From contig NW_001865047.1 of assembly GCF_000002865.3 (NCBI RefSeq), positions 587,139 through 651,138 of the forward strand: DNA of 64,000 nucleotides. Reading direction: 5' to 3'. Made by a program: the position numbers and the translations under genes. The notes under the pieces were generated by a model, which was not told where the DNA came from, ran no database searches, and saw only the letters and a list, made by a program, of their open reading frames with translations. Positions 7,557 to 37,732 of the stretch are shown in pieces (positions within the stretch are counted from its first letter, which is position 1; each line of letters opens with the position of its first letter). This DNA is from Monosiga brevicollis MX1 (lineage: Eukaryota; Opisthokonta; Choanoflagellata; Craspedida; Salpingoecidae).

Positions 7557-7564
7557 TTTATATA
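7557..7564 (+). promoter_or_regulatory. TATA box of permuted tRNA-Thr copy 1
   Basis: TTTATATA whose last base lies 32 bases before the first mature tRNA base (7596). The same octamer is at the same distance in the other two copies, while bases between differ, so position and sequence both look conserved. Confidence 0.75.
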
Positions 7565-7595
7565 CAGATTTATGCTCTGCACTGTCAGCACAGTT

Positions 7596-7702
7596 AACCA
7601 AAGGTCACGAGTTCAATTCTCGTAGGTGCCTCATAACCACTGCTTGGAACCCTTCAACCGGTTCTCGGCGCCTTAGCTCAGTGGTAGAGCGTTGGTCTAG
7701 TA
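7596..7702 (+). tRNA. Circularly permuted tRNA-Thr(AGT), copy 1
   Basis: The 3' half comes first (7596-7631) and the 5' half second (7667-7702), separated by a 35-base spacer. Joining base 7702 (position 37) to 7596 (position 38) gives a full cloverleaf: acceptor 7667-7673 with 7624-7630 (one G-T pair), D stem 7676-7679 with 7687-7690, anticodon stem 7692-7696 with 7597-7601, loop CTAGTAA with anticodon AGT at 7699-7701, variable loop AGGTC, T stem 7607-7611 with 7619-7623 around TTCAATT, discriminator T at 7631. No CCA is encoded. The A box (TAGCTCAGTGG) lies downstream of the B-box-like GAGTTCAATTC, the reverse of normal genes. The break is at the canonical nuclear intron site. The sequence agrees with animal tRNA-Thr(AGT) (GGCGCC start, TCTAGTAA loop). 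Confidence 0.92.
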
Positions 7703-7709
7703 AGCTTTC

Positions 7710-7714
7710 TTTTT
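7710..7714 (+). terminator. Pol III terminator of copy 1
   Basis: A T5 run begins seven bases after the end of the 5' half, giving a very short trailer. The same spacing and run occur in copies 2 and 3. Confidence 0.75.
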
Positions 7715-8454
7715 GCCATATTTTTGCTTTTGTACATGTGACATGTCGATTTGTTTCGCGAGACCACTCCGTCCGCTTTTTCTACATGTCGAGCTTTTCT
7801 GTCTGAACGGGGCATCGATCGTTGCATGGATCCTGGTGGTCGGCCCACGCGGAGGCCGTTGTCTTGGGCTCTCACATTGAGAGCAAATACCCCATTCTCG
7901 CAAAGTCAAAGTTTGGGGGGGGTCTGATCGTCCCCCTTTGGACCTTGTGCTTAGGTCTCATTTTCTTCTGACGGTTCATATGGAAGGTTATCCAGCCGGT
8001 GTGTATAGCTGATCCGAAGCAAGTGGATTATCGTAGAGAAACAGCTGTGAGGCGAGCCCAGGTCTGAGCATTCAAGATGCTTTGATTCAGACTCTCCTCA
8101 CGCTCTGGGCAGCGTAGCGTCTGTCCGCCCGTCGAAATGTCAAGTCAACCTGTTTGGTTGTACTCTGTCAAGCCAGGCTCGGCGCTTGTAGGCGCCGAGC
8201 CTGGCAACGGAAGGGGAGGCAAGGTACACGCGCCTATTCAGGGCGTCAGCACCCGGCCGACTCCTATCCGAAACCCACCTTCCACTTGCATCACTTGATC
8301 GCTATTTTTTTTTTTCCCCGTGTTTTCTTCTTGCGGTTAATCAACGTGAAGCTACCCCTACTCTTTGTGTTTGGTGCTTAACGGGTCAATAAAAAGTTTA
8401 CGCGCGCAACAGAGCGAGGAAAAGTGCAGTCGCCAGAAAAAGCAAAGATATGGC
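7715..8454. other. spacer between tRNA copies 1 and 2
   Basis: No gene recognised. The stretch contains a perfect hairpin (listed separately). The motif TCTGAGCATTCA near 8066 recurs near 8876; its meaning is unclear. Confidence 0.5.
8172..8205. repeat. perfect 14-bp inverted repeat (hairpin)
   Basis: Arms 8172-8185 and 8192-8205 are exact reverse complements (GCCAGGCTCGGCGC) around the loop TTGTAG. The hairpin is GC-rich, very stable on paper, and lies between two tRNA copies. No T run follows it, so it does not look like a Pol III terminator. Function unknown. Confidence 0.85.
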
Positions 8455-8459
8455 AAAAA
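8455..8459 (-). terminator. Pol III terminator of copy 2
   Basis: T5 on the minus strand, seven bases after the 5' half, as in copy 1. Confidence 0.75.
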
Positions 8460-8466
8460 GAAAGCT

Positions 8467-8573
8467 TACTAGACCAACGCTCTACCACTGAGCTAAGGCG
8501 CCGAGAACCGGTTGAAGGGTTCCAAGCAGTGGTTATGAGGCACCTACGAGAATTGAACTCGTGACCTTTGGTT
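8467..8573 (-). tRNA. Circularly permuted tRNA-Thr(AGT), copy 2
   Basis: Minus-strand copy, identical to copy 1 over the whole 107 bases: 3' half at 8573-8538, spacer 8537-8503, 5' half at 8502-8467. Anticodon AGT is read from 8470 to 8468. The leader next to the 3' half (GTCAGCACAGTT) and the trailer (AGCTTTCTTTTTGCC) also match copy 1. The order is again 3' half first on the transcribed strand. Confidence 0.92.
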
Positions 8574-8604
8574 AACTGTGCTGACAGTGCAAGGCATAAT
8601 ATTG

Positions 8605-8612
8605 TATATAAA
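8605..8612 (-). promoter_or_regulatory. TATA box of permuted tRNA-Thr copy 2
   Basis: TTTATATA on the minus strand, 32 bases upstream of the first tRNA base (8573). Confidence 0.75.
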
Positions 8613-9416
8613 GCCAAGTATTTATAAAGCGACGACAATGTCATACAAATATCATCACCTTTGCCGTTATGCTTTCGTAACCAAGTTTGGAGCCCTCGTG
8701 TGCGCGCGCTGCGCAAACAGCATCGGGTCGCGGCTCGCCGACAGCAGACCTTGCGCTTGATGCCCTTTTCTGATCGAGGAGGAAGAGACGCTATATATGT
8801 AAGAGTATGTACGATCTCATCCCAGCAGCTGTTCTGACGTGGACGGCTTGCCTCGATGGGGTGGATAGACCAGATCTGAGCATTCAGTGAAATTGAATCC
8901 TTCAGCCTGGAAAGGCCAAATCCCCTGGAATACGGGCGACGGTGTGTTCGTCTGGGATGTGCCAACCGATCGGCACTACATCTGTGGTCCTGAGCCCCTG
9001 CCGCAACAATTGATTGGGTGCTTCCTCAGATTTGCCACCTCGGTGTCGGATCTGGGGTGCATGGGTGTTGGTTGACAAGCCGTGGGATCGGTGCAGGGCG
9101 CTGGCAAGCGGGAGCAGGCTTCTCCGCTCGTCGGATACGACGGCGTTTGATTGAGGTCGTCCCATCCAGCATCTCTTGTATTGATCTTGGCTGTCAACTG
9201 CTGCAATGCCGATGCTATACTTCTATGTAATTCGTCCACGTCACGACGGTTCCTACCCTTTTGCTGCCGTTGGTCACAAACCGTCCTTTTTGCAGTGCTT
9301 GGTGTTGCGTGCACGCCACATCCGCTCGTCCATGATCGCAGAGCAGCAAAGGCACAAGTCCCGCCAAGAAGACATTTGAAAAAGAATGTCTGCTTTGGAG
9401 GTGCAAAAAATGAGGC
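8613..9416. other. spacer between tRNA copies 2 and 3
   Basis: No supported gene. Open frames are short, with no family resemblance. A second TATA-like AT-rich stretch (TTTATAAA near 8629) lies further upstream of copy 2. Confidence 0.45.
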
Positions 9417-9421
9417 AAAAA
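9417..9421 (-). terminator. Pol III terminator of copy 3
   Basis: T5 on the minus strand, seven bases after the 5' half. It would stop Pol III before any distant 3' half could be reached. Confidence 0.75.
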
Positions 9422-9428
9422 GAAAGCT

Positions 9429-9535
9429 TACTAGACCAACGCTCTACCACTGAGCTAAGGCGCCGAGAACCGGTTGAAGGGTTCCAAGCAGTGGTTATGA
9501 GGCACCTACGAGAATTGAACTCGTGACCTTTGGTT
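9429..9535 (-). tRNA. Circularly permuted tRNA-Thr(AGT), copy 3
   Basis: Third copy on the minus strand: 3' half 9535-9500, spacer 9499-9465, 5' half 9464-9429, identical to copies 1 and 2 across halves and spacer. Upstream sequence diverges from copies 1 and 2 just outside the conserved GTCAGCACAGTT leader, then agrees again at the TATA region. This pattern argues that leader and TATA box are kept for function. Confidence 0.92.
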
Positions 9536-9566
9536 AACTGTGCTGACCTTGTATCGCATAATATTG

Positions 9567-9574
9567 TATATAAA
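9567..9574 (-). promoter_or_regulatory. TATA box of permuted tRNA-Thr copy 3
   Basis: TTTATATA on the minus strand, 32 bases upstream of the first tRNA base (9535), the same spacing as in the other two copies. Confidence 0.75.
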
Positions 9575-10243
9575 GACTTTATCAAGGCGATGAACGAAGC
9601 AACACGTGCAGCAACCGTGTTTTATCTCAACGGGTGAGGGGTTGTCAGCACTTTTATTTTTCTAATTTTCCCAGTTTTTTGACTTTTTTTTTCTCTCTCT
9701 CAACTCTGTGAGAGGAGAGAGAGGAAGAGGAACTGGCAGCGCGTACGTCGCTTTTGCTCTCTCTCTCTCTCTCGTGTGGTGGTTGGTGCAGGGTTGGACT
9801 CAGTGGCTTGAGTTGGACTGAATGCATTTATGTTCAGGGGGGGGGAGGAATTAGGGGCAGGGGTCTGGGTGGGTTGAGAGACTGGCGTTCGCTTGGCTGT
9901 TGAGGCGTGTGCTGGGTGGGTCGGCCACGCGCTCGTTTGGGACGTCATGCTGGTCACTCACTCTGTCGTTACTTTTTGCATGCCTGTCGCCAGATAGACG
10001 GATGAGGAAGAGGTGAAGGAAGCGGAGGAGTTGGTGCACCATTTCACTAGGGTCACCTTTGTGGCCTGGAGGACAGGACAGGACAGGACAGGATAGGACA
10101 AGACGGGTATGGGTGCTGCTTGACTGCTTGGCTGTCCCAATGCTCCAGTGCATTTGCTTGCTCCCAGGTGGGTCTTGAGCAATCTCTCACTGGCCTGTCT
10201 CAATCCTACCACCTCGCCAGCTAGAAGCGGCTCACTTGCAGCC
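9575..10243. other. intergenic region upstream of the ELYS gene
   Basis: Contains CT/GA-rich simple sequence (about 9690-9775) and an imperfect pentanucleotide repeat GGACA near 10071-10090. No gene is supported. It presumably contains the ELYS promoter. Confidence 0.5.
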
Positions 10244-34186: not shown

Positions 34187-37100
34187 ATGGAGTCGCGCGC
34201 GGCGACCATGCGCGCCCTCCAGGCCACCATTGAGGCGACCCTGGAGTCGTTCGAGGTACGATATTCTGCCAAAAACGATCAGGCTGCCATTCCCAACCTG
34301 GTGTGTATCTCATGCACAATCCTGCCCTTGCGCACCCACAGCAAGACACCCCTGCACCCTCCGCCGAGGCGTCCCAACCCGAGCTCCCTCGACCAGCCTG
34401 CACACCTGCCACAGCGACTGTAAGCAATGCGCCCCACCCCACCCCCTGCTTGGCGAGGCACTTGGTCTCTGATGATGGTCCCCCAAAGCCTCTCAGCGAG
34501 CGAGGTACAAGATGGGAGCCGTTTGCGGTCACGCTTCTGATGCTTTGGCTCATGACACGTTGGTTGATTTGGTAGCGCCCGGCGCGACCTCGCGCAGGTC
34601 TAGGCAGTGCACTTCGAATCAAGTCGGCGTCTCAGCGCATGACAGAACTGCAAACGGACGGCAATCCCCTTGAGGGCTGGTGGTCTTTCTTGAACCTTCA
34701 GCTCGACAGTCTCAAGGGCCCCTGCCAACATCTTCTGCGTTTCTACAAGACAGGAATTGAACGCATCGATCAAGAGCGCTACCGCGACCAAGAACTCTAC
34801 GTTCAACTCTGGCTCGAATATGCGCGCCTGGCCATGGCCTGCGGTGACGCTGAAGAGGCTGGCTTCACTTTCCAGCAAATGCAGCAAGATAGCATTGGTC
34901 GTGGCTTCCGGCATTTTCACACCATTTGGGCAGAATTTGAAGAAAGCCAAGGTTTGTGTGCCAAATTCCGCCCTACCCCACCCCCGTGCGCCTTGCCCCC
35001 TGAACGCGCGCCATTTGATAAACTCGTGCTGTGCTTTCCGTATCAACGCCGTATGACAGGCCATACGGGCCGGTCGCTCGAAATTCTGCGCAAGGGGCGC
35101 ACCGCTCGAAAACCCTCCAGCGAAATTGTGGCCCGCGAATCCCGATTCAAATGCTTGCTGGAGACCCCAACCTCCTGCATTCGTTGCGGAGGGCGCTCCA
35201 AACGCTACAACAACGACCAATCCACCGGTGAGGACCCACAACTGCTTGACTTTGTCACCTCCCCAGTTTGAGATCAGAGCGAGCCAGCATCTGACCTTGT
35301 AGCGCTTTCTCATGGGGTTCCCTGCTGCACCGCAGACCCCACACCCATGAAGCGGCCCGCCCCTACCCGGCAAGCCACTCGCCGCCAAGCAGCCAGCCGT
35401 GCTGCTGCATTTGGTGCGTTTGTGACAGTTGCCCGTTTCGACTCCCGCGACTCTGCAGTTGGGACGTCATCCTTACTCACGTGGCCGTATTCTGCATCTG
35501 CCTTGCACTCCTGTATTATCACACGTAGGTCCACCCCAGCGGGTCCCGCTCAGCACCTCCATTGTGGAGGAGGAAGACGACGACGAGGATAAAGCCAACG
35601 CCAAAGAACAAGCTCGCCCACACAACCACAGTCGCAGCTCGAAAGAAAGCGAAGCCCTTATGAACGATGACCTGGGACTACCCAGCGTGGATCCCGTGAA
35701 AGCGCGACTGGCTCAGGCCTTGAGCGCCAACACCTCGGCGGCAAACCTGTCCAGCGACAGCAATCTACCTCACCTCACCACCTCAAGTCTCGGTAGCAAT
35801 GGCAGTCGCCTCAGCATCTCGTCCGTAGGCAGTGCTGATGACGCCACCAACAATGGTTCTGGTAGTGACAACAGCTTTTCTGACATCCAGCCCGGTCGGC
35901 ATGCGCGGGACCCAGAACGTCGCACCGGAGCCAATCGCCCCTCGGGCTTGCAACACTGCGATGCCCCCGTGGACAGGCCACACTCTTCCCCACGGGCCCC
36001 GCTGGAAGCACCCATGCCCGCGCCGGCACCTCACAGCGCTGCTGCCGGCGCGCCCAAACGTCAGCATGCTACGCTGACGGTTCGACCCGATGTTGACGAA
36101 GACCCACTCCCACCACCGCTACCCATGGCATCCACTTCCAAACAAGCCACCGCTGTTTCAAGCCCGGGGAAGGGGCAGGCGCACGGGCCCACAACCGCTG
36201 CCCCTGGACCAACGGGTGACACAGTCAAGTTCTCGCTCAAGTCGCGAGTTCATGAGGTGCAAGCTCGCGATGAACTGCCCATCGCCACCCCCATGGGCGT
36301 GCCACGGCCCAAGTCTCGCCACCAAACCGCGCTTCCTGCCCCATCCACTGTTGAAGCCGCCCCGCCCGTGGCGCGTCGCATGGCCTCTGCCGCCGCCACG
36401 CCCTCAGCGGCGCCCGCGTCCATGCGTCATCAACCCGTCTCCGATGAGTTTGTGCGCAACATGGAAACCGTATCGGTGGCTCAGCGCCCATACATTAAGT
36501 TGGAGCAACTTGGTAAAGGTGGCTCCTCGCGCGTCTATCGCGTACTCGATGCTGAGCACGCCATGCTGGCGCTCAAGGAGGTCGATTTGCGCGACGTGGA
36601 CGCGGCCACCGTGGCCAGCTTCAAGAATGAGATTCACTTGCTCGAGCGACTGCAGGGTGAGCCCAACATTATCTGCCTCGTCGATTGGGAGCACGACGAG
36701 GTGGCCAAGGTGCTGCGCATCGTGATGGAGTGTGGAGACGTTGACCTCGCGAGGATGCTGCAGACGCAACGCGCTGCACGGGCCTCGAGCCGTGGCGCAG
36801 AGTTGCCCGTGATCGACGAAAATCACATTCGCCTGTATTTTCAACAAATGCTCGAGGCCGTGGGGGCTGTGCACAGGCAACAGATTGTGCATAGCGATCT
36901 TAAGCCGGCCAACTTCCTCTGCGTCAAAGGCGCACTCAAGCTGATTGACTTTGGTATTGCCACAGGCATTCAGGAGGACCATACCAGCGTGATGCGTGAT
37001 GCGCAGATTGGCACGGTCAACTACATGTCCCCCGAGGCCATTGCTGGGACCATGGGCGATGGCGCTTGTCTCAAGGTTGGTCCAGCCAGCGACGTCTGGT

Positions 37101-37732
37101 CCCTCGGGTGCATTCTTTACCTGATGGTCTATGGCAAGACGCCGTTTCAGCACATGCCAGTGCTGCAAAAGCTGCAGCGCATTCCCGACGCCAAGCACGC
37201 GATTGAGTTTGAGCCCCTGGCCAACCGAGACCTCTTGGCCGCGCTGCAAGCCTGTTTACAGCGCAACCCTAAGAAGCGACCAACGATCGAACAATTGCTG
37301 GCCCATCCGTTTTTGCATCCTGGCACCGCCGCTGGACCGGCGCTGCAAACGCCGCGCCGTGATAGGAGCCACAGCCGTCTGGGTGGGGCCGTGCCCTACG
37401 CGGAGTTGGACGGTGAATCCACAGCCACCGTGACCCAAGCGCAACTCATGCAGCTCCTCAGCCAGGTGCGCCAGCTGGACGTGCAATGTTCCCCTGGGCG
37501 CTTGTCGCGTCGTATTTTCCGCCAGCTCCAGCAAGGCGTCACGATGGAGTCACTCAATGTGGCAGCAACCCCGGCACGGCCGCGAGCTGGACCGACAGGA
37601 GCCGCACCCCTGCGCACCCCGTTGGGCAAGCTCGATGGAAACAGCATGCGACCCAACACGGGCATGAAGCGTGGCAAGGTCAAGCTTCAGACCGCCTCGC
37701 CCCTCGTTCTCGGTGCCATGCCGGCCTTTTAG
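34187..37732 (+). CDS. TTK: MPS1/TTK spindle-checkpoint kinase
   Basis: Dual-specificity kinase that starts spindle assembly checkpoint signalling at kinetochores. Exons: 34187-34255, 34342-34419, 34636-34951, 35060-35227, 35336-35413, 35529-37732; all phases agree. The TPR domain is visible: NPLEGWWSFLNLQLDSL, YARLAMACGDAEEAGFTFQQ, FHTIWAEFEESQG, matching human TTK (NPEDWLSLL, FVHISFAQFELSQG). A long Ser/Pro-rich linker follows. Kinase motifs: LGKGGSSRVYRVL (human IGSGGSSKVFQVL), ALKEVD, IVHSDLKPANFL, LIDFGIA, QIGTVNYMSPEAI, DVWSLGCILYLMVYGKTPFQ, PTIEQLLAHPFLH. HSDLKPANF and GTVNYM are diagnostic of MPS1. A basic tail (NTGMKRGKVKL) ends the protein of about 970 residues. Nothing broken is seen. 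Confidence 0.95.

Follow-up and report, generated by a model that had tools for sequence, protein, structure and literature searches.

Permuted tRNA genes are placed by reviews in Cyanidioschyzon merolae, four prasinophytes, the Bigelowiella nucleomorph, and Thermofilum (PMC3978253, PMC4033280), which matches the algal, nucleomorph, and archaeal occurrence given in a preliminary description of the DNA analyzed here. A 2025 paper describes permuted tRNA genes in Auxenochlorella as well (PMC12636532), and the route by which permuted tRNA genes mature through a circular intermediate has been described (PMC3978253). The preliminary description knew of no report in holozoans, and none was found for choanoflagellates, holozoans, or other opisthokonts among the open-access PMC literature matches listed. 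Choanoflagellates are the sister group of animals, and the DNA analyzed here is a 64,000-nt stretch (the window) of the choanoflagellate Monosiga brevicollis MX1. A 768-aa ORF in the window matched an M. brevicollis MX1 protein with 100% identity across 95% of the ORF. The long ORF at 35426–37732, with a TTK/MPS1-type kinase domain, is identical to M. brevicollis MONBRDRAFT_25473.

Structure of the permuted tRNA-Thr(AGT) units

Five permuted tRNA-Thr(AGT) units were found in the assembly searched, which comprised 39,470,161 bases in 57 contigs (the published version has 218 scaffolds and 41.6 Mb; PMC6188563). Three were located in the window (7596–7702 (+), 8467–8573 (−), and 9429–9535 (−)) and share one sequence over 107 nt; the other two were located at 669.8 kb of contig C48 and 417.7 kb of contig C45. 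On the transcribed strand, a 36-nt 3' half (positions 38–73) is followed by a 35-nt spacer and a 36-nt 5' half (positions 1–37), and the 3' half was upstream of the 5' half in 5/5 units. The order with the 3' half first and the 35-base spacer, both claimed earlier for the three window copies, were confirmed at these coordinates and strands, the spacer length being exact in all three. The features of the window units are as follows.

7557–7564, + strand: TATA box of unit 1 (TTTATATA), 39 nt ahead of the 3' half
7584–7595, + strand: leader of unit 1 (GTCAGCACAGTT), invariant in 5/5 copies; G(−3) can pair with C32
7596–7631, + strand: 3' half (38–73) of unit 1, tRNA-Thr(AGT), read directly and found by the covariance model
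7632–7666, + strand: intervening sequence of unit 1, 35 nt, from T73 to G1, without a T-run
7667–7702, + strand: 5' half (1–37) of unit 1, with the anticodon AGT at 7699–7701, read directly and found by the covariance model
7710–7714, + strand: Pol III-type terminator (T5) of unit 1
8605–8612, − strand: TATA box of unit 2 (TTTATATA)
8538–8573, − strand: 3' half of unit 2, read directly and found by the covariance model
8503–8537, − strand: intervening sequence of unit 2
8467–8502, − strand: 5' half of unit 2, read directly and found by the covariance model
8455–8459, − strand: terminator (T5) of unit 2
9567–9574, − strand: TATA box of unit 3 (TTTATATA)
9500–9535, − strand: 3' half of unit 3, read directly and found by the covariance model
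9465–9499, − strand: intervening sequence of unit 3
9429–9464, − strand: 5' half of unit 3, read directly and found by the covariance model
9417–9421, − strand: terminator (T5) of unit 3

Joining the halves at 37/38 produced a 72-nt tRNA-Thr(AGT), and the AGT cloverleaf that had been claimed to result from joining was called from the 72-mer by ARAGORN with all four stems paired, including one G-T pair. The preliminary description had also put the break exactly at 37/38. A full tRNA does result from this junction; as A occupies positions 37 and 38 and also begins the trailer, a break one base later is equally possible and yields the same product. The 35-nt spacer is within the 1–74 nt range of type II permuted genes (PMC3978253) and contains neither TTTT nor TATA; TTTT was absent from the whole 107-nt unit. 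The spacer (7632–7666 and its equivalents) is invariant in 5/5 copies, and a GAACC/GGTTC hairpin is possible.

A permuted covariance model was constructed by recasting 15 ordinary tRNAs of the same genome in permuted order with N spacers and aligning them; Thr(AGT) was not among the 15, and two of them were Thr(TGT) and Thr(CGT). The model identified exactly three units in the window, each with 75.9 bits and an E value of 1.6e-24, and no non-standard pairs were marked in their alignments. No normal-order tRNA was detected in the window by ARAGORN or Rfam, and the window contained no contiguous anticodon arm, even allowing 3 mismatches. The control set (60 of 98 loci, 145,439 bases, three loci with permuted units) gave 196 matches, of which most were weak hits (<32 bits) on ordinary tRNAs. 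Ordinary tRNAs arranged head to tail scored up to 65.8 bits (an Ala pair) and 59.1 bits (an Arg pair), since their inner halves stand in permuted order, and the permuted-model score was rejected as sole proof on account of these high tandem scores. The permutation is established by the content of each unit, as the similarity search with the joined tRNA retrieved a single 3' half and a single 5' half at every unit and no outer halves. An exact-pattern scan of viral contigs found no permuted order. Judged on the defining features that can be tested in a sequence, the junction motif apart, the unit is a type II permuted tRNA gene.

Copy number, flanking signals, and alternative explanations

The preliminary description had called for a genome-wide search for a conventional tRNA-Thr(AGT). 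A DNA similarity search with the joined tRNA, run on the 57 contigs (39.5 Mb), retrieved the two permuted copies outside the window and no ordinary tRNA-Thr(AGT). The ordinary nuclear Thr genes found were one TGT and two CGT genes, with 92–94% identity to the joined tRNA. The five permuted copies are probably the sole source of tRNA-Thr(AGT) in M. brevicollis; an ordinary copy could possibly lie on a small scaffold outside the 57 contigs.

The five units lie at five separate positions, spread over two contigs and both strands, and are invariant over 107/107 nt and the 12-nt leader. In the 48 nt further upstream (−60 to −13, compared without gaps), the other four units matched unit 1 at just 22 to 31 positions. 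The window copies are contained in a repeat of approximately 170 bp with 94–97% identity, present in both orientations (7557–7731, 8438–8613, and 9406–9575). As approximately 170 bp is shared at this identity, the sameness of the copies would come partly from recent duplication or conversion, and as the repeat runs from promoter to terminator, the copies would have been spread or homogenized as whole transcription units.

We consider it unlikely that the permuted copies are dead relics of tandem duplication and that an ordinary Thr(AGT) gene outside the 57 contigs supplies the cell. The decayed stems and lost signals of pseudogenes were not seen: the stem bases are all kept, and paired, the 107 nt are unchanged in five units despite their diverged upstream flanks, and the TATA box and T-run are kept in all five. 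Although the shared repeat means that the window copies may be recent duplicates, and approximately 2 Mb of the published assembly lies outside the 57 contigs, the published tRNAscan-SE run over 218 scaffolds still had Thr as an exception (PMC6188563). Codon usage also argues against dead copies: of the 41 Thr codons in the single window ORF that was counted, read from stop to stop, 25 are ACC or ACT.

The TATA box was found at exactly −39 from the 3' half in 5/5 units (TTTATATA in four and TTTATATG in the C45 unit), and the T-run begins 6 or 8 nt past the 5' half in 5/5 units. Among ordinary nuclear tRNA genes, a match of at least 6/8 to TTTATATA, a consensus picked after inspection of these sequences, was present within 60 nt upstream in 43 of 49 genes, and the same criterion applied to a control stretch further upstream was satisfied in 4 of 49. 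The matches were located between −34 and −59 in 39 of the 43 genes, with −39 as the commonest position (6 genes); the remaining four, at −8, −12, or −27, are unlikely TATA boxes. TTTT was present within 40 nt downstream in 43/49 genes. The 49 genes represent 32 loci, and among them are two Ser(GCT) genes whose ends ARAGORN misplaced; seven mitochondrial loci, Gly, Pro, Asp, and disrupted Lys genes were excluded. As a TATA box and a T-run of the ordinary type flank the permuted units, these carry the promoter and terminator sequences of an ordinary gene with the halves swapped between them.

The A and B boxes are in reversed order in the permuted units, and the upstream TATA box could be the reason transcription tolerates this, as argued for C. 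merolae, where the upstream TATA is held to offset the reversed boxes (PMC3978253). Exon-by-exon searches, run without a working eukaryotic control, found no match to the TFIIIC B-block (PF04182) or Tau95 (PF09734). Four tRNA-Phe(GAA) genes (C35:536169, 552611, 553023, and 553464) are flanked by nearly the same sequence, which includes upstream a hairpin-like series of TTAACC or TTAGCC, TTCG, and GGTTAA, and, unlike most other tRNA genes here, possess neither a TATA box at the usual place nor a T-run.

The same signals bear on the very improbable reading of a split tRNA, in which the halves are separate RNAs joined in trans and their closeness is incidental. Split halves would use the same endonuclease and ligase, and neighboring halves could act in trans in principle, but instead of separate loci with their own promoters and terminators, we found halves spaced exactly 35 nt apart in 5/5 units, with a single TATA box before the 3' half, a single T-run after the 5' half, and no T-run in the spacer. 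An assembly artefact or the remnants of an ordinary tandem tRNA array is the least credible explanation. A head-to-tail pair does have the same inner order, and the Ala and Arg pairs reach 59–66 bits with the permuted model, but five units with differing flanks are present on two contigs and both strands, outer halves are absent at every unit, and the window is without a normal-order tRNA.

With a probability of roughly 0.87, we predict from the sequence that the units are functional type II (37/38) permuted nuclear tRNA-Thr(AGT) genes, present in five copies and matured via a circular precursor.

Processing machinery and proposed route

The splicing endonuclease domain (PF01974) was found at two loci. 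Two joined exons of the first matched Sen34 chains in the PDB (E value of 3.4e-23), and the second, judged by eye, reads like part of Sen2. RtcB was matched in five exon pieces (best E value of 5.5e-34). Sen54 (PF12928) gave no match in an exon-by-exon search run without a working eukaryotic control.

The leader ends in GUU ahead of A38, and G(−3) can pair with C32; we take C32:G(−3) to correspond to the positions of the anticodon–intron pair of ordinary pre-tRNAs. This pair of ordinary pre-tRNAs is named in the literature (PMC4090602, PMC3978253). A bulge-helix-bulge can be drawn with a bulge of U−2, U−1, and A38, the pairs C32:G−3 and U33:A−4, and an outer AGC:GCU helix. The energy gained from pairing of leader and trailer was as good or better in 500 of 1000 shuffled leaders, and the bulge-helix-bulge was rejected as proof because shuffled leaders equal it. 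Covariation is uninformative for the leader pairing, as the five leaders do not vary.

All RNA steps in M. brevicollis (transcription, circle formation, and maturation) we infer from algal precedent. With the TATA box as its guide, RNA polymerase III would generate one linear transcript comprising the leader, the 3' half, the 35-nt intervening sequence, the 5' half, and the trailer up to the T-run. The halves would fold into a tRNA that has its open ends in the anticodon loop and the intervening sequence closing its acceptor end. Cleavage at 37/38 by Sen2/Sen34, the tRNA splicing endonuclease, would then remove the leader and trailer, and RtcB would ligate the ends into a circular RNA, from which RNase P and tRNase Z would excise the intervening sequence, followed by CCA addition.

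Other apparently disrupted tRNA genes and comparison with known systems

A search with the genome's own tRNA-Lys(TTT), whose matches spanned just positions 8 to 59, identified five tRNA-Lys(CTT) loci (C32:252105, 252661, 250961, and 251382, and C53:857469 (−)). At these loci, the 5' part is intact up to position 59 and is followed by a 15–16-nt insert (59/60), C60 and the 3' strand of the T stem, a second insert of 12–35 nt (65/66), the 3' acceptor strand, T73, and a T-run. When both inserts were removed from one of the five, the resulting tRNA-Lys(CTT) was accepted by ARAGORN. The exons are invariant in the five loci except for an A66/G66 change, which keeps a G-T pair, and the inserts vary in sequence and length. 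No ordinary Lys(CTT) gene was found in the 57 contigs. Two tRNA-Ser(GCT) genes (C48:212370–213263) are each interrupted once in the T loop, at 59/60, by an insert of 59 nt in one and 60 nt in the other. ARAGORN takes both for ordinary Ser genes and misplaces their ends; once joined, the exons give a complete fold. From their sequences, the Lys(CTT) and Ser(GCT) inserts look like introns at ectopic places in the T arm; ectopic tRNA introns have been described for C. merolae as well as for a nucleomorph and for archaea (PMC4090602).

Further permuted tRNAs were sought by DNA similarity. Yeast-like and fly-like queries retrieved Pro (four) and Gly (eight) matches only, plant-like queries retrieved none, and tRNA queries from the genome itself gave 47 matches, none of them a half as judged by coordinates. 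By DNA similarity and an Rfam tRNA family search of the genome in which 63 of 760 candidates were scored, Val, His, Cys, Tyr, initiator Met, Ala(AGC), Gln(CTG), Glu(CTC), Leu(AAG), and other tRNAs were not located.

Southworth and colleagues applied tRNAscan-SE to M. brevicollis (218 scaffolds), Salpingoeca rosetta, and Capsaspora, and described a match between codons and tRNAs that has two exceptions, Lys in M. brevicollis and Thr in both M. brevicollis and S. rosetta (PMC6188563). Permuted Thr(AGT) genes would produce such a Thr exception, and in the same survey, S. rosetta appears to be without a tRNA-Thr(AGT) gene (PMC6188563). The five putative Lys(CUU) pseudogenes given for M. brevicollis (PMC6188563) are most likely the five twice-interrupted Lys(CTT) genes, as the number and the anticodon agree; one normal Lys gene per codon is also given there, which counts against a simple explanation for Lys. 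We see about even odds for a wider reading, in which tRNA-Thr(AGT) would have been permuted since the ancestor of Monosiga and Salpingoeca, the T-arm introns of Lys(CTT) (59/60 and 65/66) and Ser(GCT) (59/60) would be removed by an endonuclease no longer tied to the 37/38 ruler, the missing Thr(AGT) of S. rosetta and the Lys(CUU) pseudogenes would be functional disrupted genes, and the choanoflagellate repertoire would be of an archaeal or red-algal style.

A five-copy and apparently sole-source set would widen the range of permuted tRNA genes to opisthokonts, and the presence of such genes in a choanoflagellate points to repeated origins, or else to hidden retention. Essential tRNA genes may thus be missed or mislabeled by standard scanners; disrupted genes would account for the mismatch of codons with tRNA genes that has been published for choanoflagellates. 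M. brevicollis would offer a non-photosynthetic organism for the study of circular tRNA precursors.

Among the known systems, the split tRNAs of Nanoarchaeum equitans and Crenarchaeota likewise have halves joined by splicing enzymes, but these halves are at separate loci, as opposed to the one unit of M. brevicollis (PMC4033280, PMC4090602). Thermofilum pendens (Chan 2011, via PMC3978253) shares the order of the halves, the single source of an anticodon, and an AT-rich upstream promoter, and differs in that its junction lies at 59/60, its spacers measure 7 and 1 nt, and CCA is encoded (PMC3978253). In the prasinophytes and the Bigelowiella nucleomorph (Maruyama 2010, via PMC3978253), the junctions are at 37/38 with one exception, as here, and the spacers are 5–64 nt. 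Green algae and B. natans are described as having almost no atypical introns (PMC3978253), unlike M. brevicollis. Auxenochlorella has likewise reversed halves (PMC12636532); the prasinophytes, the nucleomorph, and Auxenochlorella represent algal lineages, unlike M. brevicollis.

C. merolae (Soma 2007, via PMC3978253) also has the 3' half first, with the type II 37/38 junction among its types, and it has a permuted Thr(AGT) gene at 37/38, with a spacer of 24 nt compared to 35 nt here (PMC3978253). The differences are the opisthokont host and the five identical copies, as the C. merolae table has two genes for Gly(CCC) only (PMC3978253). One permuted isoacceptor has been found in M. brevicollis so far, unlike in C. 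merolae, and the circle here is one that we infer. Both organisms have an upstream TATA box, a downstream T-run, and other tRNA genes with T-arm introns, apparent ones in M. brevicollis (PMC3978253).
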